This document shows, in pieces, positions 13,632-32,709 of a stretch of 33,312 nucleotides of DNA. The stretch comes from Victivallales bacterium (lineage in GTDB: Bacteria; Verrucomicrobiota; Lentisphaeria; Oligosphaerales; Lenti-02): the NCBI GenBank assembly GCA_003245525.1, contig QKCY01000568.1, positions 1 to 33,312 of the forward strand, read 5' to 3'. Under the pieces are notes generated by a model. It saw nothing but the letters and a program-made list of their open reading frames with translations, was not told the origin of the DNA and made no database searches. The translations under genes were made by a program, and so were the position numbers. Numbering within the stretch: the stretch's first letter is position 1; each line of letters starts with the position of its first letter.

Positions 13632-16409
13632 CTATGCCGCCTCCCCGCTCTCCGCAGCGATGGCCTCGCCCTCCGCAGGTGGCCGAGGCCGACGACGGTG
13701 GGAGGCAAGGACCCGGATCAGCAGGTGGTGGATCAGGTGAATCCCCGCGAAGAAGATGAGCTGCACGAAACAGACCGTCAGGACGAACACCGGGTCCGAA
13801 AGATGCCGCTCCGACAGGGCGAAGTTCATCGAAGCCGTCGCGGCGAGCCAGGACAGCGTCATCGCGAGGGCGGCCGGCAGCGTCGGATGGCGCCAGCAGC
13901 GCGCCAGATCGCCGAACAGCCAGATGGCCCCCACTACCACGGGGCCGATCCAGTTCAACTGGTCGCCCACTTCGAGGATCCGTTCGGTGATCATGGTGTT
14001 CACCTCCAACGCGATCCAGGCCAGGGGCGAGACAATCCAGAGCACGGCGAGCCCGATGAAGAACAGGGAAGCGTGGCGACCGCTCACCAGATCCCCGCCG
14101 CCCATCACCCGGCGTCTCCGCAACAGAAAACCGACGGTCAGCATGGCGGCCAGATAGACGATGAGCGGACCCATATCGTGGAACACCTTCCCCCAGCTCA
14201 ACATGCCATCGTACCAGTCCGCGACGGTATTCACCCCGCCCAGGGCGAGGGCCAGACACCAGACGAAGAACACGGCGGACAACTGGCCGCTCAACTGGCT
14301 GCGGCGGGTGCCGATCACCGCCCGTTCGCGCCGCTGCTCGAACTCCAGGGCTTCGCGCCGCACATGGTCGGGCAGGAAGACTCCGGGCACATCCAGGAGA
14401 TGGTGCCAGGCCTCCCGGGCCGACCCCATCTCCCCGCGCTCCTCCAGTTCCCGCGCGAAGTTGTAGCGGGCGGCCACTTCGCTCTCCACGCACTCCGACA
14501 GGGTCCGCCGGGAGACGATGCCACCGTGGATCTCGCCCTCTTCCGTCCGTTCGAGCAGATCCGCGATCGCGTCCCAGTAGTTCTCCTTGAGGAGCGCCTG
14601 GACCGTACTCGTGATATTGCGTTCGATGGTCGCCATCACCGTGGCCATGCGGGTCTCGCACGCCACGTCGTCCGGGGACGGCGTGACCACCATGAGCTTC
14701 TTCGACAACCGGAAACCCGCCAGTTCGGCCCGGACCTGCAGGGCGTCGGTACGGGCTTCGGGATCGGCCAGCAGGTCCTCCGCCCGCCGCATCGCCGCAT
14801 GCCGCTCGTCGACCCGCCGGGTGCTGTCCTCCAGCAACTGGGCGCGCCGCTCTCCGAGAATGGCCCCGTTCCAGGGGCGCAGAGCCTCCAGAATGAGCCG
14901 GGCCCGGTCGAAGCACCGGGTCTGGTACGCGGTGTTGGCCTGGTAGATGCCATCGGCCAGCTCGGCCTGGTACCGGTCCAGCCGCCGGACCAGTTCGTCG
15001 GTGGCGGGCAATTCCTCGCCCATCTCGCCCAGCAACTGGACCGCTCCCTCGAAATTGGCCAAGTCCAGTTGGTCCTCGGACTCCTCCGCCATGCCGATCG
15101 CGGAATCCAGGGACATCTTCCGTTCGGCTTCCAGCGCGCGGACCTGCTCGTCGGGGAGGACGGACAGGTCCATGGTCGAGTACTCCTTCAGAGCGTTGCG
15201 CACGCCCTTCCAGTCCACGCTCGCCAGCGAGTGGCGCAGACGTTTGAGGAGGGTCTCGCCGTATTCGCGGGCGGCCTGGCGGTTGGCCTTCATGTTGGCC
15301 CCGCAGAAGGAGCAGAAGGTGGTGTCCAGATGCACTCCCTGTCCGCAGGCGGGACAGGGCTCCATGCCATAGGCACCGCACTCGCGGCAGTATTTGCCCT
15401 TCATCGAATTGAGGGTCTGGCAGGTCGGGCAGCGCCAGCGTTCCCCGTCGGGGGTCGGCTCCCCGGACGGGCTGGCTTCGGCGCGACCGCCGGCCGGCGT
15501 CAGCGCGGCGACCACTTCGCTGCCCGTCTTGAAGCGTTCTTCGGGATCGCGCATCAGCATGCGCTGGATGACCCGGGCCATCTCCTCCGGGAAATCGGGA
15601 ACCAGATCGCGGGGGGACGGGGCCTGGCGGTAGAGGTAGTCGGCCGAGGAGGAATCCTCGTCCACCCCGGCGAAGGGCGGTGCCCCGGTCGCCATGCGGA
15701 ACAGCAAGACGCCCAGCGCGTAGAGGGAGGCGCGGACATCGCGCGGCTGCCCCAGCACCAATTCGGGAGCCACCAACCCGCCCGGGGCAGCGTCTTCCTC
15801 CTCGGCGCCAGGATCAAGAAAGGTGCCGACCGGTTCACCGGCGCGGATCAGCCGCACCTGGTCGCCAGCGAGCAGCACATCCTCCGGCGACAGGCCATCG
15901 GCCAGCAACTGGCCTTGGTCCCAGGCCATCTGTAGCGCGGCGGCCAGCGACCGCCCGCAGCTGGCCACCTCCTTGGAACCCATCCGCCCCACCCGGGCCA
16001 GACGGGCGGCCACGCTCTCCCCCTCGACCAGCTCCGTACTGCGGAAGTACAGCCCCCCCTCCTCGCCGATGGCGTAGAGATGCACGAAGGCGGGGTGGTG
16101 CATGCCGGCCAGCCGCCGTGCCTGCGCGACGAAGTGCCGCACCAGCACCTTGTCGGACATGAGATGGGGCGAAAGAATCTTGAGCGCCACCTCCCGGCCC
16201 AGGCTGGTCTGGTGGGCCCGGTACAGGGGACCGGTCTCGCCCTGCGCGATCTCATCGCCGATGACGAAGTCGCTCAAGGACAGTGCCGAGGAGAGCGGCG
16301 GCGGCGGCGTCTCGACCCGACGGCGACAGTATCCGCAGACGAACGGACGCCCACGCATGGTATCGGGCAGAGTCACTATCGAGCTGCAAATGGGACAGAT
16401 AACGTTCAC
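13632..16409 (-). CDS. Polytopic membrane protein with zinc ribbons and a degenerate Ser/Thr protein kinase domain (probable pseudokinase)
   Basis: About 925 residues. Domains in order: a CxxC/CxxC zinc ribbon (residues 5-28); a kinase-like fold (about 48-305); a double zinc ribbon (about 326-371, CPTC/CREC and CPAC/CSFC); a long helical, perhaps TPR-like region (about 375-690); and about six membrane segments near the C terminus, ending in a basic and acidic tail. In the kinase domain the VALK lysine (Lys77) and APE motif remain, but the HRDxKxxN loop reads LLADGLSPEDVLL, the DFG motif reads LIRAGEP, the helix-C Glu is replaced by Gln, and the helix-F Asp by Ser. It therefore probably cannot phosphorylate and may act as a scaffold or sensor. 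I favour the GTG at 16409 because GGCGGG sits six bases upstream; a TTG at 16415 is possible. It lies 53 bp downstream of nothing on its own strand and upstream of the sulfatase. Confidence 0.85.
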   Translation of the reverse strand: MNVICPICSSIVTLPDTMRGRPFVCGYCRRRVETPPPPLSSALSLSDFVIGDEIAQGETGPLYRAHQTSLGREVALKILSPHLMSDKVLVRHFVAQARRLAGMHHPAFVHLYAIGEEGGLYFRSTELVEGESVAARLARVGRMGSKEVASCGRSLAAALQMAWDQGQLLADGLSPEDVLLAGDQVRLIRAGEPVGTFLDPGAEEEDAAPGGLVAPELVLGQPRDVRASLYALGVLLFRMATGAPPFAGVDEDSSSADYLYRQAPSPRDLVPDFPEEMARVIQRMLMRDPEERFKTGSEVVAALTPAGGRAEASPSGEPTPDGERWRCPTCQTLNSMKGKYCRECGAYGMEPCPACGQGVHLDTTFCSFCGANMKANRQAAREYGETLLKRLRHSLASVDWKGVRNALKEYSTMDLSVLPDEQVRALEAERKMSLDSAIGMAEESEDQLDLANFEGAVQLLGEMGEELPATDELVRRLDRYQAELADGIYQANTAYQTRCFDRARLILEALRPWNGAILGERRAQLLEDSTRRVDERHAAMRRAEDLLADPEARTDALQVRAELAGFRLSKKLMVVTPSPDDVACETRMATVMATIERNITSTVQALLKENYWDAIADLLERTEEGEIHGGIVSRRTLSECVESEVAARYNFARELEERGEMGSAREAWHHLLDVPGVFLPDHVRREALEFEQRRERAVIGTRRSQLSGQLSAVFFVWCLALALGGVNTVADWYDGMLSWGKVFHDMGPLIVYLAAMLTVGFLLRRRRVMGGGDLVSGRHASLFFIGLAVLWIVSPLAWIALEVNTMITERILEVGDQLNWIGPVVVGAIWLFGDLARCWRHPTLPAALAMTLSWLAATASMNFALSERHLSDPVFVLTVCFVQLIFFAGIHLIHHLLIRVLASHRRRPRPPAEGEAIAAESGEAA

Positions 16410-16448
16410 AACCAACCCGCCTTTTCAGGAGTACAATACCCACTCGCG

Positions 16449-24791: not shown

Positions 24792-26924
24792 CTACTTCGG
24801 AGACCGGACCGCCCGGACATAGAGGACGTCGTTTTTCTGGCGCAGGACCGTACGGACGGCCCTCATGTCGACCGCGAGGGCCTGGTTCACGTCCGTGTCC
24901 GGCACGCCGCTCCAATAGATCTGGCCCAGGCTGTTGGGGAACGCGCGGTCATGCTCCTTCTGCCCGAGTTGGGCGATCAGCCGGAGCTCCTCCTCGTCGG
25001 GCAGACGCCAGTCCTGGAAACCCGCGAAGACCAGCGCGTCGGCCCAGCGGAACGCCTCGTGCCAGTTCACCTGGCGTCCCCCCATACAGCCCTCGCCCTT
25101 GCCATCGCTAGCCCACATGAGCCCAGCCAGGTTGTCGGTGACCGTGCCCGGCTTGTCGAAGGTGAACCGCTCGGCAGGGATGAGCAGGTCCAGTTTCTTG
25201 AGGGCGGGAATGGCCGCCCGGTAGTTCTGTTCCTTGATCAGGGCCACCGAACGGCGGCTGTAAAGCTCGATCTCGGCTCTGTTGGCCGGGCGGAAACGCT
25301 CGATTCCGAGGGCAAAGTCCTTGGCCCGGGCGCCGCAGCTCTGCGCCAAGTCCAGCGCCTCGCGCCTCAGCGCCTCCATATCCTTCAGCGCCTTCTCCAG
25401 AAGCGTGGTCCACTCGCGGTACTTGGCCACGGCGTTCGTCACATCGCCCCGTTCCTCGGCGCGCTGGGCTTCCCGCATCACGGTGAAGATGGCATCGTAC
25501 TGCTTGTCCGGCAGGTTGACCTGGAGCAGGCCGGCCAGGGGGTTGGCCCGCAGGGCCGCGAGCTTGTCCTGGACCTCGGTGAGCCCGGCCAGCATGTTGG
25601 TCTTCTGGGCGACGATGGCATCCACCACTTCCTTCAGGCCATTGGCCCGGCCCAGGAGGGACACGATGTCGTCGCCGCGGCCGACCGCCTGCTTCATCTC
25701 GTTGAAGGTGACCACGACCTTGTCCCAGCCTTCCTTCAGATTCGCCTCGTAGAAGGTCACGTCGGCCTCGGCCGCATGGAATGCCATCTCGGCCTCCTGC
25801 ATGCGCTGCTGGAGTGTGGTGCGGGCCTTGGTGATCTGTTCGAGCATCTCGTTCACTTTGGCGACGCCCTGGTCGGCACCCTCTTTGACGGCCACGTATT
25901 GGAAGTCGGCGGAGGCCTGATTCAGCGCCTCGCGTTCCTTGGTCAACTCCTGCCACGCGATCTGGGCGTCGCGCGGCGCGCCCTGGTTCTTGGCCTCCGC
26001 CAAGGCCTTGTCGAAGGCGGCGACGGCAGTGATGGCTTCGGTCTTGGCCGTGCGCAGCTTGCCGATGGCCTTGGGCAACTCGGCCTTGGCACCCAGGTAG
26101 AGGCTGGTCGCCTCCTGCCAGTCCCGACGCTTGATGGCGTCCTTGGCAGCGGCCAGCTTCCCGGCCAGCACCTTGGCGTCCTCCGGGAACGCCTTCGCGT
26201 ACTCGTCCTGGCTGAATACGCTGCTCTGTTCCGTGAAGGCCGCCATTTCCTGGCGCAGCACCGTGATCTTCGGGAAATCGATGGACAGACCATCCAGGAG
26301 GTCCACCCCGCGACGATAGCCAGCCACCGCTTCCTCGCTACTGACGTCTTCCGCGGTCGCCTTGGCCCGGGCCTGTTCCACTCCGGCCCACAGGTCGGGC
26401 AACAGCTCGCCGATCCCGAGTTTCGTCGCCCGCTCATAGAGCGATTCGAAGTTGTTGCGGACGAAATCCACCTTCGAGGCGGCGTCACGCGCCTTCACCA
26501 GGGCACCGACCAGCAACTCGTCGGCCTGCCGGTACAGCTTCGCGACGGCGCGCGCCCCGCCTTTGCCCGCCTCGGCCTGCTTCTGCAGGCTGAGCACCCG
26601 CTGCCAGTCGCCGGCAGCATAGAGAGAGAGGATGGCGACATCGCTCTTGGCCTTCTCCATGCTCTCCTCGAAGGGCACCCGGGCGTTGTCCACCACGGTG
26701 CCGGCCCAGACTCGGTAGCCAATGAAGACGACCAGTCCCAGCAGGAGCACCCCCCCCAGCACCACCGGCAACAGCCAGCGCGGCCCCGGTCCGCGCATCT
26801 CGCGCTCGATGCGGGCCAGTTCCTTCTTCTGTCGCCTGGCCTCTTCGCGTTCGGCCCGGCGTTCGGCCCGAAGACGTTCGGCTTCGGACTGTTCCAATGG
26901 TTCTTGCGGTGCTTTGACGGGCAT
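24792..26924 (-). CDS. Membrane-anchored coiled-coil protein with C-terminal DUF1566 domain
   Basis: A 710-residue protein. The N terminus is a very charged helix (residues 11-45, rich in Glu, Arg and Lys), then one membrane segment at about 50-73 (WLLPVVLGGVLLLGLVVFIGY), then about 500 residues of mainly helical, coiled-coil-prone sequence, and a C-terminal DUF1566 (Lcl C-terminal) domain with TDNLAGLMWASDGKGEG, WHEAFRWADAL and FQDWRLPDEEELRLI. DUF1566 domains are usually exported and thought to bind something at the cell surface, but their function is unknown. The ATG at 26924 has GAGGACC upstream. The promoter at 27031-27059 lies ahead. It may be a scaffold that reaches across the periplasm. 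Confidence 0.8.
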   Translation of the reverse strand: MPVKAPQEPLEQSEAERLRAERRAEREEARRQKKELARIEREMRGPGPRWLLPVVLGGVLLLGLVVFIGYRVWAGTVVDNARVPFEESMEKAKSDVAILSLYAAGDWQRVLSLQKQAEAGKGGARAVAKLYRQADELLVGALVKARDAASKVDFVRNNFESLYERATKLGIGELLPDLWAGVEQARAKATAEDVSSEEAVAGYRRGVDLLDGLSIDFPKITVLRQEMAAFTEQSSVFSQDEYAKAFPEDAKVLAGKLAAAKDAIKRRDWQEATSLYLGAKAELPKAIGKLRTAKTEAITAVAAFDKALAEAKNQGAPRDAQIAWQELTKEREALNQASADFQYVAVKEGADQGVAKVNEMLEQITKARTTLQQRMQEAEMAFHAAEADVTFYEANLKEGWDKVVVTFNEMKQAVGRGDDIVSLLGRANGLKEVVDAIVAQKTNMLAGLTEVQDKLAALRANPLAGLLQVNLPDKQYDAIFTVMREAQRAEERGDVTNAVAKYREWTTLLEKALKDMEALRREALDLAQSCGARAKDFALGIERFRPANRAEIELYSRRSVALIKEQNYRAAIPALKKLDLLIPAERFTFDKPGTVTDNLAGLMWASDGKGEGCMGGRQVNWHEAFRWADALVFAGFQDWRLPDEEELRLIAQLGQKEHDRAFPNSLGQIYWSGVPDTDVNQALAVDMRAVRTVLRQKNDVLYVRAVRSPK

Positions 26925-27030
26925 CTGGGCTGGTCCTCGGGGTGATGTCCTGGACGACGCAACGGGAGACCGGTCCGGACACGTTCCGCCGGAACAATGC
27001 TCCTTTGGCCGGATATCGCCGCCCTGCTCT

Positions 27031-27059
27031 ACTATACGGGCAGGCAGACAGGATGACAA
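27031..27059 (-). promoter_or_regulatory. Near-consensus sigma-70 promoter of the DUF1566 gene
   Basis: On the minus strand TTGTCA (27059-27054) and TATAGT (27036-27031) are spaced by 17 bp; each box differs from consensus by one base. It is the best promoter match seen in the window. The leader to the ATG at 26924 is about 100 nt. Confidence 0.6.
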
Positions 27060-27084
27060 CGTGTTGCCCCCGGTCACTGGCCGA

Positions 27085-27113
27085 TTGGCGAAAGGGCAAG
27101 GCATGGCTAGCGT
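27085..27113 (+). promoter_or_regulatory. Weak candidate promoter of the toroid protein
   Basis: TTGGCG (27085-27090) and TAGCGT (27108-27113), spaced by 17 bp, lie 35 bp before the ATG at 27149, divergent from the DUF1566 promoter. The -10 match is poor. Confidence 0.25.
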
Positions 27114-27148: not shown

Positions 27149-28264
27149 ATGATCGCCCCCCACCGGAAGCGGGAACTGGAACTGGTCTGCGAAGCTATCC
27201 GCCAGTATCTACTGCGGACTCAGACGTGGACGCCCGGCGAGTACTTCGGCTCCTTCTGGAGCGAAAAGGCCTACCACGGCCCCTTGCTGGACTACCATGC
27301 CGGCGGCAGCCATCACCACCGGACCGCAGGCAGCGCCGCGCTGGCCCTCTGGCTGGCGGGACAGCGCCAGGACCGTCCCGCCTGGCAACGGGCGGCGGAA
27401 CACGCCTTCGATTGGCTGGTTGCCCGCCAGTCGCCCCGGGGAGGGTTCGCGGAGATCCAGAACCGGGAACGGCCGGCCGATTGGGAGAACACGGGCCGGG
27501 AGGAACTCTCGACCATCGCTCTGGGCTTTGTCGCGCATGGTCTGGGCCATGCCCTGCTGGCGGGGCTGCCACCGAAGAAGTCCTACCTGGATTGCCTGGA
27601 CCGGGCGGGCCAGTGGCAACTGGGCATCGAGTTCCCGCCCGGCTCGGGCGTGTTCCCGCACCACGAACGGAGCCCGTACAACACGCTCAACGCCGCCACC
27701 CATGCCGCCGAGACCCTCGCCCTCGCCCACGTTGCCCTGGACCGGGTCTATGGTCGCCGGGTGAACATCTTCCTGGAGGGGGCCCGGCGGGCGGTCGCCA
27801 ACGTCCTGGCCTGCCAATGGGATAGCGGCTGCTTCCCCTACCGCGACTACGGCGAGGTCACCATCAACTACACCAGTCTCGTGGTCTGGTGCCTGCTCAA
27901 TGCCAGGGATGCACTGGGAACCGCCGCGGGGCGGCTGGAACCCGACCGCCTGCTGGCGGCCTGCGAACGGGCGACCGGATTCCTTCGCGCCTGCGTGGGC
28001 GGGGACGGCCGCCTGCTATGGGAAGGCAACGAGACGTCCACCGCCAAGCACAATATCTGGACCTATGCGATCACCGCCCACGTGCTCGCCCGGATCGGCG
28101 GCCCGGAGAACCTGACGGCCGCCGACCGGCTCCTGGGTTGGCTGCTTGCGCAGCGGGCCGCCGATGGCCTCCTGCCCATGCGCGACGCGGGGGAGACCAT
28201 CACCGAATGCGCCTTCATGCAGGCCGACATGTGCCTCTTTCTCCAGCCCCTGGCCGAAGACTAG
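27149..28264 (+). CDS. Alpha/alpha-toroid (six-hairpin glycosidase-like) protein
   Basis: A 371-residue protein whose repeated helical hairpins with aromatic residues suggest an alpha/alpha toroid, as in many glycosidases, lyases and epimerases. Examples are YHGPLLDYHAGGSHHHRTAG, FDWLVARQSPRGGFAE, YNTLNAATHAAETLALAH, WDSGCFPYRDYG and AKHNIWTYAITAH. No signal peptide is seen, so it may act in the cytoplasm. I cannot assign a specific family or catalytic residue. The ATG at 27149 is preceded by GGGAG. The stop codon overlaps the stop of the LpxC-like gene in a CTAG palindrome. Confidence 0.65.
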   Translation: MIAPHRKRELELVCEAIRQYLLRTQTWTPGEYFGSFWSEKAYHGPLLDYHAGGSHHHRTAGSAALALWLAGQRQDRPAWQRAAEHAFDWLVARQSPRGGFAEIQNRERPADWENTGREELSTIALGFVAHGLGHALLAGLPPKKSYLDCLDRAGQWQLGIEFPPGSGVFPHHERSPYNTLNAATHAAETLALAHVALDRVYGRRVNIFLEGARRAVANVLACQWDSGCFPYRDYGEVTINYTSLVVWCLLNARDALGTAAGRLEPDRLLAACERATGFLRACVGGDGRLLWEGNETSTAKHNIWTYAITAHVLARIGGPENLTAADRLLGWLLAQRAADGLLPMRDAGETITECAFMQADMCLFLQPLAED

Positions 28265-29301
28265 TCGCGGCGCACGGGTGCCAGCAGATCCTGCAGGTAG
28301 AGATAGGTCGTCAGCCGGACATCCAAGGCGTGCCCCGCCTTGTAGGAGATCACCCGCCCCGCCAGGCGACCCGTCTCGACCAGCGACAGCGCCGCCACCA
28401 GATCCAGGGTGGCCCGGTGCCAGACCGCTTCGAGCGATCTGCCCTCGTGCAGCAGCTTCGGCTCGTTGGCGTACTGGTTGCGCCCGGCAATCAGGATGTT
28501 CCGGTGGGTATAGCCGAGATTGCGGATATCCGCGAAGAGCTTGCCGACCGTGCGCACGAACCACCACTCCAGGCGGGAGCAGTTGGTGCGGGCCTGGGCT
28601 CCATGGCTGAAGGCTTCGGGAAAGACATCGAACTGGATCCGCTGGTGCCCGATGGCCGTCGGGAAATCCACCGCGCAATCGACGTGCAGACGGCAATCCC
28701 CGTTCTCGGCAGGCAGCATGAGCAGGAAGCTCCCGTGGGGCCCCATCAGCGCCACCGGTTCCTTGACGGTCCAGTAGACCAGCTCCCGGTCCGTCTGCTC
28801 GACCAGTCCTGCCCGGACAACCTTGTCGATGATCGGCAGGCTGCCCACGTCGAACAGCGGGGGGTCGCCGGAGTTGGTGCGCACCATCACGCTGTCCAGC
28901 CCGAGTCCGAGCCGCAGGGCGACCACGTGCTCGACCATGCGCAGATAGTTGTGGGCCGAGCCCGAACGGAGCACGATGCTCCGCTTGGTGTCCCAGACGT
29001 TCCGGACGCTAACCCGGATCGGCAGTTGCTCCCGGTGGTCGGTACGGTCGATCCACCAGCCATCCTCGGCATACGGCTCGAAGTGCAGGGTGCTGCACGA
29101 GCGGCACTCGTAGGTGCCCCTGCCAGACACGTAGAAGGGCCGGCCGATGGTCGTTGGGTGCCGGGGCGGAACCCAGTCCGGCGGGGCGAAATAGGTCATA
29201 TCGACCGGGATCTCGTTCCAGGCGGCAAGGCTGGCCCGGAACTCCTCGGGATGACCGGCAAGAAGACGGCTCTGTGCGTAGGAATCCACCACCTGCGTCA
29301 T
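28261..29301 (-). CDS. LpxC-family protein (UDP-3-O-acyl-GlcNAc deacetylase-like) with atypical metal site
   Basis: A 346-residue homologue of LpxC, the zinc enzyme that commits UDP-GlcNAc to lipid A synthesis. Both domains can be followed: FYVSGRGTYECRSCSTLHF and DRTD (domain I start), RMVEHVVALRLGLGLDSV (Glu124 and His125, equivalent to E78/H79 of E. coli), FPTAIGHQRIQFDVF, QARTN (Thr239), EAVWHRATLDL (His295, Asp300) and YKAGHAL (His324, equivalent to H265). In E. coli LpxC the zinc ligands His238 and Asp242 are four residues apart; here they are five. DGS reads DVGS, and there are about 50 extra N-terminal residues. The ATG at 29301 is the best start seen but is poorly supported. It may be a diverged LpxC or a paralogue acting on a different acetamido sugar. 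Confidence 0.75.
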   Translation of the reverse strand: MTQVVDSYAQSRLLAGHPEEFRASLAAWNEIPVDMTYFAPPDWVPPRHPTTIGRPFYVSGRGTYECRSCSTLHFEPYAEDGWWIDRTDHREQLPIRVSVRNVWDTKRSIVLRSGSAHNYLRMVEHVVALRLGLGLDSVMVRTNSGDPPLFDVGSLPIIDKVVRAGLVEQTDRELVYWTVKEPVALMGPHGSFLLMLPAENGDCRLHVDCAVDFPTAIGHQRIQFDVFPEAFSHGAQARTNCSRLEWWFVRTVGKLFADIRNLGYTHRNILIAGRNQYANEPKLLHEGRSLEAVWHRATLDLVAALSLVETGRLAGRVISYKAGHALDVRLTTYLYLQDLLAPVRRD

Positions 29302-29712
29302 CCTCTCTGCGTCCGCTGCGGACGATAGTAGTACGGGAACATGGCCGCGTGCCGCCCGGGTGGACCAGGCGCGGAGCACCGGCGACGGGGGCCGGCCGGA
29401 GCAATTCCGGGAAAGCGCGGGTCCACCGACCACATAGCACGCAACATCGCGGGGGCTTGGGTTGTCGATTGGGGCAACATGCAGGACAATCCCCGATGAG
29501 ATCAATGACTCAACATAACCCCAACCCCGGAACTGGCCATTCCCCCAGGTCCGGGGAGGGCAATCCCGAAGGACGGCCGGAAGACTCGCTCGCCATTCGC
29601 TTTGCGGTTGGGAGGAACGTGCTATGGTAGGAAAATACCGGAATAGTTTTTCTGGATACTGTTTGGTTATGGTGTCTGCCAGCGGGGAAGCAGCTAGGGA
29701 CCCAATTTCGCT
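29302..29712. other. Intergenic region between the LpxC-like gene and the hybrid kinase
   Basis: About 410 bp with no gene that I can support. It holds an imperfect stem-loop at 29525-29556 and an AT-richer patch (29625-29680, with TATGGT and runs of T) that probably contains the promoter of the hybrid kinase gene, but no well-spaced -35/-10 pair is clear. Short frames here (for example 29298-29489, minus) resemble no family. Confidence 0.5.
29525..29556. repeat. Strong stem-loop in the divergent region before the hybrid kinase
   Basis: CCCCGGAACTGG (29525-29536) pairs with CCAGGTCCGGGG (29545-29556) with one mismatch, giving 11 of 12 base pairs around the loop CCATTCCC. It lies about 155 bp ahead of the kinase start and about 225 bp ahead of the LpxC-like start. 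No T-tract follows on either strand. Confidence 0.45.
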
Positions 29713-31449
29713 ATGAGTGCAGCCAAAACCCGCGAGGAACTTTGTCGCGAGATCGCCAGTTTGCAGGCCAAACTGACGGCATCGGAAGAGGCGGAGCGCG
29801 CCGCCTGGGACGGGCAGACGGCCCTGGGGCAACTGGTGGACAACCTCCCCGGCATGGCCTACCGTCTGGTCTACGAGAGCGGCGACGAGGGTCGGATCGA
29901 GTTCCTTAGCTCCGGCACGGAGCTGCTGACTGGCTACCCGGCCGCCCGGATCATCCGCGAACCCCGTTTCTTCGAGACCCGGGTGGTCCATCCCGACGAC
30001 GTGGAAGCCCGCCGGAATGTGATCCGCGCGGCGCTGGAACGGCACGAGAGCTACCAGCACAGCTACCGGCTGGTCACCCGGGGAGGGACCGTGAAATGGG
30101 TCTCCGAGCGGGGACTGTGCCAATCCGACGGCAACGGCACCATCCTCGCCCGCGAAGGGTTCGTCCACGAACTCAGCGGCAGGGACACGACCGATGTCGC
30201 CGACCGCCAGGACGTCGAGGACCTGCGCGAGCGGATCAGCCTGCTCCTGCGGCAGCGCGAGGCGGACGAACGCCAGCGCCAGGCCATGCAGCGGCATCTG
30301 CGCCATTCCCAGCGGCTGGAAAGCCTGGGAACGCTGGCGCTCGGCCTGGCCCACGACTTCAACAACATCCTCCAGGCCATCCTCGGCTACGGACGGGTCG
30401 CCCTCGGCGAACTGGACCCCGCCGGAGCGGCCCACGGCCACGTCGGGCGGATTCTCACCTCCGCCGAACGGGCCCACGAACTGACCATGCGTCTGCTCAC
30501 GTTCTGCGGCGAAGGCGAACCCTCTCCCGAGCCCCAGTTCATCGAGCCGCTGCTGCGCGACGCGATCCGGATGCTCCGCAGCGTGCTTCCCGCCACCATC
30601 AAGCTCGAGCTCGAACTCTATCCCGAGCCCGGCGTGGTGGTCGGCGACACGACCCTCCTGCTCCAGGTGTTCGTCACCCTCGCCACGTGCGTCTCCCGCA
30701 GTTTGGACGAGCAGGGGGGCACGCTGGAGTTCCACCTGAACGAAGCGTATGTGGACCACGCCAACAATGGCGAGGTGCCGCACGAACTGCCCGCCGGTCT
30801 CTACACGCGGGTCTGCGTGGGCGAGAGCCACGATGTCGGGGTCTCCCTCGAACGGAACGCCCGCTGGCAAGCTGCGGGTGGCAAGGACTGCGAGCAGCCG
30901 GGCCTGGCCATCATCCTGGATATCATCCGGGAACTGGGCGGCTGCCTGACCATGTGGCAGAGCGATAGCAGGCAGCCGGTCTTCCGGGTGTATCTGCCCG
31001 TCCAGGAGGATGGCGTCCCCGACCCCGCCGCCAACGAGAAGCCTGGCCGCTACGAGGCCTCCCTGGATGACTATGCTAGCGCCGGCGAACACGTGCTGTT
31101 CATCGACGACGAGCAGATCCTGGTCGAACTGGGCACGCTGGTCTGCGAGGAGCTGGGCTATCGCGTCACCGCCTGCCGCTCCAGCCTCGACGCCCTGCGC
31201 CGGTTCGAGAACGATCCGGCCTCCTTCGATGTGGTCCTCACCGACCAGACCATGCCCGACCTGACCGGCTTCGAGCTCGCCCAGCGCATGCTGGGCATCC
31301 GGCCCGACATTCCCATCATCCTCACGACCGGCTACAGCGAGATGGTGGACGAGGTGCGGGCCCGGGAGATCGGCATCCGCGAGTACCTGATGAAGCCCCT
31401 GACGCCGGAAGGGTTGGCGGCGGTCCTTCGCCGCGTGCTGGACGAGTAG
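29713..31449 (+). CDS. Hybrid sensor protein: PAS, HisKA, degenerate ATPase domain, receiver
   Basis: A 578-residue soluble hybrid two-component protein. A short coiled coil (about 6-32) leads to a PAS fold (about 38-150), a coiled linker, and a HisKA domain with an intact H-box (SLGTLALGLAHDFNNIL, His214). The ATPase domain that follows (about 275-430) has lost its key motifs: the N-box reads LQVFVTLATCVSRSL instead of the NLxxNAxxA type, the DxGxG box reads VGESHDVGV, and the GTGLGLA box reads CEQPGLAI. The final strand FRVYLPV is normal. The receiver domain (about 459-578) is complete: Asp465/Asp466, phospho-acceptor Asp511, Thr539 and Lys561. It may act as a phosphatase, phosphotransfer or non-catalytic relay rather than a kinase. 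No membrane segment is seen. It probably leads an operon with folC and the LamG-type gene (gaps 27 and 24 bp). Confidence 0.88.
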   Translation: MSAAKTREELCREIASLQAKLTASEEAERAAWDGQTALGQLVDNLPGMAYRLVYESGDEGRIEFLSSGTELLTGYPAARIIREPRFFETRVVHPDDVEARRNVIRAALERHESYQHSYRLVTRGGTVKWVSERGLCQSDGNGTILAREGFVHELSGRDTTDVADRQDVEDLRERISLLLRQREADERQRQAMQRHLRHSQRLESLGTLALGLAHDFNNILQAILGYGRVALGELDPAGAAHGHVGRILTSAERAHELTMRLLTFCGEGEPSPEPQFIEPLLRDAIRMLRSVLPATIKLELELYPEPGVVVGDTTLLLQVFVTLATCVSRSLDEQGGTLEFHLNEAYVDHANNGEVPHELPAGLYTRVCVGESHDVGVSLERNARWQAAGGKDCEQPGLAIILDIIRELGGCLTMWQSDSRQPVFRVYLPVQEDGVPDPAANEKPGRYEASLDDYASAGEHVLFIDDEQILVELGTLVCEELGYRVTACRSSLDALRRFENDPASFDVVLTDQTMPDLTGFELAQRMLGIRPDIPIILTTGYSEMVDEVRAREIGIREYLMKPLTPEGLAAVLRRVLDE

Positions 31450-31476: not shown

Positions 31477-32709
31477 ATGAGAGACTGGGATCAGGACCGC
31501 GAAGCGGCCTTTTTTGCCATCCTTTCCCGCTATCTGGATCTGGAACGGGACACCAGCCGTTCCTATTCGGCGGGGGAGTATTCGCTTGAGCGCATGCCTG
31601 TCCTCGCCGCCCTGGCGGGGAACCCCGAGCGGTGCCTGGGCACCATCCATGTGGCGGGGACCAAGGGCAAGGGATCGACCTGCCATTTCCTCACCAACCT
31701 CCTGGTGGCAAGCGGGTTCCGGGTCGGCACCTTCGCCAGCCCCCACCTGAGCACCGTCCGGGAACGGTTCCTGGTCGACGGGCGCCCGGTGGCCTATGCC
31801 CCGCTGCTCGAACAGGCCAGCAGGCTGGTCGCCGCCCTGGAAGCCCAGCGACTGGAACCGGGCTTCTTCGAGATTCTCACGGTCCTCGCGCTCCGCCTCT
31901 TCGCGGACGAAGGCTGCCAGTTGGCCGTGGTGGAGACCGGCATCGGTGGCCGCCTCGACGCCACCAACTACCTGGAAGCGCCCCTCTGTACCGCCATCAC
32001 CCCCATTAGCTTCGACCACATGCAGTTGCTGGGCAACACCATCGAGGAGATTGCCGCCGAGAAGGCGGGCATCCTCAAGCCGCGGGTTCCCCTGGTCCTG
32101 GGCGCGCAACCCTTTCCGGCGGCGGAACGGGTGATCCTGGCCCGCGCGGCGGAACTTGGCGTGCCCGTCGAACGACCGGTACCGCTGGCCGAGGCGCGGG
32201 AATGGCTCCCCGCCACGACTCCGCCCTTCCTGGTCGAGAACTTCGCCGTCGCCCTGCGCATCTGCCAACTCCTGGGCTACCGTCCGGACACCGCCCGTTT
32301 CACGGTGCCGGAACTGCGCGGGCGCTTCGAGATCGTCCACCAGGAACCGCTGGTCATTCTGGATGCCGCCCACAACGCCGACTCCGCCCGCCGTCTGGCG
32401 GAGGCTCTGCGCCAGCGCTTTCCCGGCCAGTCCTGGACGGTGGTGCTGGGCGTCGCCAAAGGCAAGGATGTACCTGGCATTGTCCGCGAGCTGGCCGCCC
32501 TCGACGCGGATTTTGTCCTGACCAATCCCCGCCCCCCCAAGACGTCGGCCCTGGAAGAGTTGACGGCAGCCGCCGCGGAGGCTAGGCTTCGCTACCGCGT
32601 CATTCCCCAGATTGCCGCCGCCGAGGATCTGCCCAGCGACCGTCCCCTGCTCTTCACCGGCTCCTTCTTCGCCGCCCTGATCGGGGAGGAACTGTTCAGC
32701 CAGCGCTGA
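31477..32709 (+). CDS. folC: Folylpolyglutamate synthase/dihydrofolate synthase
   Basis: A 410-residue Mur-ligase-family enzyme that adds glutamate to folates, and often also makes dihydrofolate from dihydropteroate, in the cytoplasm. The ATP loop GTKGKGST, followed by GTFASPHL, VVETGIGGRLDATN, the family signature FDHMQLLGNTIEEIAAEKAGI, LRGRFEIV and the C-terminal ILDAAHNADSA are all seen. Length is normal. The ATG at 31477 is 27 bp after the hybrid kinase stop, with GGAG further upstream. Its grouping with a sensor protein and a secreted lectin-like protein has no clear metabolic logic. Confidence 0.95.
   Translation: MRDWDQDREAAFFAILSRYLDLERDTSRSYSAGEYSLERMPVLAALAGNPERCLGTIHVAGTKGKGSTCHFLTNLLVASGFRVGTFASPHLSTVRERFLVDGRPVAYAPLLEQASRLVAALEAQRLEPGFFEILTVLALRLFADEGCQLAVVETGIGGRLDATNYLEAPLCTAITPISFDHMQLLGNTIEEIAAEKAGILKPRVPLVLGAQPFPAAERVILARAAELGVPVERPVPLAEAREWLPATTPPFLVENFAVALRICQLLGYRPDTARFTVPELRGRFEIVHQEPLVILDAAHNADSARRLAEALRQRFPGQSWTVVLGVAKGKDVPGIVRELAALDADFVLTNPRPPKTSALEELTAAAAEARLRYRVIPQIAAAEDLPSDRPLLFTGSFFAALIGEELFSQR

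Follow-up and report, generated by a model that had tools for sequence, protein, structure and literature searches.

The gene at positions 29713-31449 of the DNA analysed here, a Victivallales contig stretch of 33,312 nucleotides which we call the window, encodes a protein with the parts of a hybrid histidine kinase, in which the ATP-binding motifs are degraded. This raises the question of what such a protein can still do, and which of its parts matters. The features of the gene are the following:

29713..31449, + strand: pseudo-hybrid histidine kinase gene, 578 aa, ATG start
29902..30159, + strand: PAS_3 sensor domain, residues 64-149 (Pfam PF08447, E 8.9e-12)
30310..30528, + strand: DHp / HisKA region, residues 200-272 (weak Pfam HisKA match; helices in the models)
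30352..30366, + strand: H-box core H214-D215-F216-N217-N218 (HDxxN), read in the sequence; absent in the member from genome G009
30529..31008, + strand: degenerate CA (ATPase-like) domain, residues 273-432 (HATPase_c unmatched; Bergerat fold in the model)
30661..30705, + strand: former N box LQVFVTLATCVSRSL, residues 317-331, Asn326 replaced by Cys (homologue alignment, by eye)
30817..30846, + strand: former G1 box VGESHDVGVS, residues 369-378, Asp replaced by Glu371 and a three-residue insertion (homologue alignment)
30847..30906, + strand: former ATP lid, F box and G2 box, residues 379-398, Gly397-Leu398 as sole remnant (homologue alignment; low model confidence)
31093..31428, + strand: receiver domain, residues 461-572, with D465, D466, D511, T539 and K561 (Pfam PF00072, E 2e-20)

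Loss of the ATP-binding site

The codon periodicity of the reading frame is normal (GC by codon position 0.72/0.43/0.87), and an equally degenerate counterpart with 70% identity is found in another, independent genome from this genus (G001, locus L002). Together these identify a real gene. A scan for sigma-70 promoters gave no match. Regarding its membership in the hybrid histidine kinases, the HisKA histidine (H214 in LAHDFNN) and the receiver residues DD/D/T/K are present and HATPase_c is absent; HisKA itself (PF00512) is matched at residues 206-264 with an E value of 7.3e-4 and 20.0 bits, under its Pfam cut-off of 26.9. The closest NCBIfam rows are the VirA-like PRK13837, PRK13557 and CckA. 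His214, Asp465/Asp466, Asp511, Thr539 and Lys561 all stand where the initial annotation of this DNA had placed them.

HATPase_c was not detected in the protein by HMMER at E<=10, subject to the filters of the program. In the alignment of homologues it was matched in 46 of 50 sequences. The unmatched ones are the window protein and three relatives, and scanning these four (L001, L002, L003 and L006) singly gave no HATPase_c match at E<=10 either. The initial annotation had recommended to collect homologues and score their boxes: when read by eye, the N, G1, F and G2 boxes are jointly absent in only 4 of 112 distinct homologues (from 122 loci after removal of duplicates; L084 is partial), and these form one clade. 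The remaining homologues have recognisable boxes by eye, L007 alone with an altered F box. In this protein (L007:1501-2679, minus strand, genome G003), the F box reads EPFSMAS, the N, G1 and G2 boxes are present and the HATPase_c match is clear. A further 44 homologues carry the boxes as well; regular expressions missed boxes in six of them (L138, L140, L148, L150, L151 and L170), and L170, missed by two expressions, is by eye a kinase with variant boxes.

Compared with intact homologues, the ATP site of the window protein has Cys in place of Asn326, Glu371 in place of the G1 Asp together with the insertion of three residues, and no F box, and of the G2 glycines Gly397 (in GL) alone is left. 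The segments previously quoted as lost N, G1 and G2 boxes begin at residues 317, 369 and 393 (the third being CEQPGLAI) and are indeed degraded, with Glu371 and Gly397 as remnants. The loss of the ATP site is thus a degradation, not an erasure. The copy in genome G002 retains the G1 Asp (IGDS), and the N-box Asn (position 326) has been replaced by Cys, Cys, Lys and Gly in the four members; such variety of replacing residues is expected if the site is out of use. The motifs DxGxG, GxG[LM] and NxxxNA are encoded in no reading frame of 30501-31060. Accordingly, a frameshift or an alternative register concealing them is ruled out, and intact motifs in a different register, which had been named as a possible refutation, found no support.

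The predicted structure was likewise a proposed check, with regard to an ATP lid. AlphaFold models have a mean pLDDT of 74.7 for the whole protein and of 82.8 for DHp-CA alone, which was modelled separately because receiver matches filled the VIA-align results of the whole model. The class I kinase core is present, and the former ATP lid is predicted with low confidence in both models. The CA part superimposes on the CA domain of NtrB (1r62) with Z 17.8 and rmsd 2.1 over 133, and the receiver has its best VIA-align match in 3jte (Z 21.5, rmsd 1.3 over 121). Structural matches of the DHp-CA model include CckA, RetS and DivL chains, the RetS kinase-region chain 7n0e_B being the rank 6 Foldseek match. 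The predicted CA fold is that of an ordinary kinase CA (Bergerat) domain despite the motif loss, in a model whose alignment consists mostly of intact kinases and is biased towards their fold. The use of ATP through unusual residues could appeal to this fold, to the single G2 glycine left and to Glu371 as a conservative substitute for the G1 Asp. However, the N-box Asn, the F box, the lid and the other glycines are absent, the replacements differ among members and HATPase_c is scoreless, so that we regard continued ATP use as very unlikely.

A clade of four members and its distribution

The members without ATP boxes are:

L001: the window gene, in its own genome (G000)
L002: genome G001, same genus
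L003: genome G002, same family
L006: genome G009, another family of the same order

They form a single clade with a support of 100/98 in a tree calculated from DHp and receiver columns, the CA domain being excluded. This tree comprises 67 of the 112 rows, taken mostly in score order together with six more distant Victivallales, and 195 columns; L046, L079, L084 and L092 were left out as gappy. The sister of the clade is an intact deltaproteobacterial kinase, L024 (support 97/85). A search of 47 genomes of the order found clade members in four, at 972, 963, 863 and 742 bits, with the next match at 307. No additional member was detected in a sample of 387 genomes of the phylum, with three first-look candidates scored per genome, so that a weak member could be missed there. 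Within the genomes searched, the clade therefore consists of only four sequences, two of which end at contig edges. A plasmid homologue, H3, was considered as a convergent case and dropped, since its ATP boxes are intact despite the annotation 'response regulator'; two of the five plasmid matches listed (H1 and H3) were inspected, and both have intact boxes.

In sequence, the parent family is the class of CckA, VirA-like and FixL-NtrB kinases, whose intact relatives also have the order DHp-CA-REC; all of these are intact kinases, in contrast to the window protein with its lost ATP boxes. The best analogue is RetS of Pseudomonas aeruginosa, which passages of PMC5992135 describe as a hybrid kinase with a degenerate HATPase domain lacking G-boxes, an intact H-box with phosphatase motif and a functional receiver. 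According to the same passages, the REC2 Asp of RetS takes phosphate from GacS, and RetS dephosphorylates the GacS receiver and blocks GacS autophosphorylation. The window protein is composed of the same types of parts: the degenerate HATPase domain without G-boxes is present, and so is HDFNN, which is absent in G009. RetS differs in its periplasmic sensor and in having more than one receiver, while the window protein has PAS_3, one receiver and, by Pfam, no such sensor. The clade profile matched 36 PDB sequences at E<=1e-10; these include FixL chimeras, LvrB and CckA but no RetS chain. From these sequence comparisons the clade is likely to be a lineage separate from RetS, in a tree that does not contain RetS. 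It is a new lineage of an already known kind; none of the papers listed by literature searches named the window protein. In plants, the ethylene receptors combine a diverged kinase domain with a receiver; they are eukaryotic, and their sensor is unrelated to that of the window protein.

Receiver constraint and the H-box

Between the window gene and its G001 counterpart, Nei-Gojobori dN/dS values are 0.039/0.606 (0.06) for the receiver, 0.125/0.746 (0.17) for DHp (residues 200-272 in identity and dN/dS comparisons), 0.208/0.607 for PAS and 0.278/0.745 (0.37) for CA, and the overall ratio is 0.28. The identity is 92% in the receiver (112/122) and 62% in CA (100/160), this receiver identity being the highest of seven kinase ortholog pairs. 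All seven are reciprocal-best pairs; 4 of the 11 kinases of the window's own genome have no reciprocal partner. The ratio of receiver to CA identity is 1.48, versus 0.84-1.14 in the six intact reciprocal-best pairs of the same two genomes. The values per domain and this ratio indicate that the gene is retained and that the weight has shifted to the receiver, which is the domain under the strongest constraint. The clearly degraded CA domain, in genomes that are fragmented metagenome assemblies, might suggest a gene in decay or an assembly error. Yet the open reading frames are intact in four genomes, the dN/dS values are low overall and in CA, the identical degenerate state occurs in independent assemblies and the synteny with G001 is preserved. 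Decay of the gene is ruled out by the dN/dS values and the intact reading frames, and decay or error taken together is hardly probable.

All five active-site positions of the receiver are retained in each of the four members, whereas the H-box is not. HDFNN is intact in G000, G001 and G002. The G009 member reads IRSFNS for AHDFNN, so that it lacks His, Asp and the last Asn, with the receiver DD, D, T and K retained. Without phospho-His and phosphatase residues, this member argues against a His-dependent role across the whole clade, and the loss of its H-box alongside the retained receiver leaves phosphate acceptance by the receiver as the sole phosphochemistry possible for all four. The well-conserved H-box in G000 and G001, as seen from the DHp ratio, fits a His-dependent role in these two. 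The initial annotation had proposed a phosphotransfer or phosphatase role fed by another kinase. Its view of a protein that does not autophosphorylate and is supplied from outside agrees with a clade that lacks the ATP boxes and is under purifying selection; a role based on His214 is possible in three of four members and is not clade-wide. The sequence comparisons give good support to the view that the window protein would be unable to autophosphorylate and would obtain its phosphate from another kinase.

As a phosphotransferase of the ChpT or PhyT type, the protein would take phosphate onto His214 from its own or another receiver and pass it to a response regulator, the dead CA domain aiding partner binding. 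Passages of PMC3433190 describe ChpT with an atypical Bergerat domain, without ATP binding and with a relay via His33, and passages of PMC5898713 describe PhyT with the DHp His, a degenerated ATPase domain and phosphate passing from SdrG to PhyR. Both precedents share the DHp His and the degenerated ATPase domain with the window protein, and HDFNN is intact in three members. On the other hand, these passages mention no C-terminal receiver in either protein, whereas the window protein combines a PAS sensor with a receiver of its own; moreover, one clade member lacks the His, and the receiver, not DHp, is most constrained. SPOB_a reaches E 0.19 and 11.8 bits versus a cut-off of 28.1, other phosphotransferase families being unmatched, and at E<=0.01 it is found in 7 of the 50 homologues as well, the intact L007 included. 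The structural matches listed for the models showed no ChpT chain on inspection, which carries no weight against a likeness to ChpT. We give this role a rather low probability. Less probable is a PAS-controlled phosphatase that would act on a partner receiver via HDxxN and have no kinase activity: D215 and N218 are retained in three of four members and RetS has such an activity with a degenerate HATPase domain (passages of PMC5992135), but both residues are absent in G009, and the strict retention of the receiver would not be required.

Two further proteins without transmitter or receiver, from genomes G021 and G019 of the family of G009, bear on the sensor:

L171:1290-2366, + strand: PAS_3-PAS protein
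L172:1596-2516, - strand: PAS_3-PAS protein

The similarity of the G021 and G019 proteins to the window protein covers its coiled-coil and PAS_3 (40% and 38%, respectively), and both proteins stop after the second PAS. The G021 protein has 56% identity to the PAS_3-PAS part of the G009 member. No receiver of the pseudo-hybrid kinase type was found in either genome at E<=1e-20. By sequence, they could either be orthologs with lost output or represent the source of the sensor, and since they lack a receiver, the sensor module may have a receiver-independent job. These sensor-only homologues, as well as the persistence of the modelled CA fold without motifs, would suit a scaffold or sensor that works by PAS-gated dimer or heterodimer contacts without phosphochemistry, its receiver residues being kept for fold or docking. 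The retention of five active-site positions in all four members and the receiver dN/dS speak against such a scaffold, and we consider it quite improbable.

Proposed role and genomic setting

With moderate confidence, we favour a catalytically dead hybrid kinase that would, through its receiver, regulate an active kinase as a phosphate acceptor, sink or relay. Starting from what the comparisons demonstrate (loss of the ATP boxes, a single clade, purifying selection and receiver constraint), the protein would not phosphorylate itself from ATP. Judging from its predicted fold, it may be dimeric, or heterodimeric, via the DHp/CA core. The receiver would accept phosphate from an active kinase that is encoded at another place in the genome, the PAS_3 domain would set the timing of this acceptance, and the protein may act on the active kinase as RetS does on GacS. 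Members with the H-box could add phosphatase activity or His-to-Asp transfer, which we rank as secondary because one clade member lacks the H-box. By analogy, contact inhibition would also be open to all four members. Donors are plentiful, with 43 matches to receivers (E<=0.001) and 5 to Hpt in the window's own genome. A receiver search of this genome found no partner kinase, the closest paralogue being the hybrid kinase at G000:C292, with 39% in the receiver, and the rest 37% or less.

More tentatively, one order of Lentisphaerota may record the stepwise dismantling of a hybrid kinase: the ATP boxes (G000, G001, G002), then the phospho-His as well (G009), and, for the PAS_3 module, all output (G019, G021). 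In the dead kinase, the receiver may have become the working part, accepting phosphate from other kinases under the control of the sensor. Few systems are known in which a degenerate hybrid kinase has a working receiver, RetS being the foremost. The clade adds a second lineage, probably a separate one, whose members differ in how much they have lost. It offers a natural test of which part matters, and domain counts which treat every hybrid kinase as an ATP-driven input misread such genes.

The neighbours of the gene in the window are:

28264..29595 (stretch as scanned), - strand: LpxC-like gene, divergent upstream neighbour (PF03331, E 1.7e-31)
31477..32709, + strand: folC, next downstream gene after a 27-base gap (TIGR01499, E 1.3e-86; order identical in G001)

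The pseudo-hybrid kinase gene thus lies between the divergent LpxC-like gene and folC in both the window and G001. In G002, dxr follows downstream in the same orientation and murF is close by, and in G009 the gene faces uppS and a cdsA-like gene in convergent orientation, a single open reading frame lying between. Envelope and cell-wall precursor neighbours in three settings, counted without a control set, are a hint of envelope control. The LpxC-like protein has a long N-terminal extension and scores 55 bits against the TIGR00325 LpxC equivalog cut-off of 187; judged from these scores, it is possibly a divergent paralogue. A large protein with a C-terminal Lcl_C domain is encoded at 24795-27104 on the minus strand, and a similar gene occurs near the pseudokinase in G001 too. 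Finally, the initial annotation had counted the hybrid kinase as the second kinase-like protein in the window unable to use ATP. This fits the reading frame at 13635-16415 on the minus strand, a Ser/Thr protein-kinase-like protein with a double zinc ribbon and a Pfam Pkinase match, in which the VALK Lys is present; since HRD and DFG are absent, it is probably also a pseudokinase.
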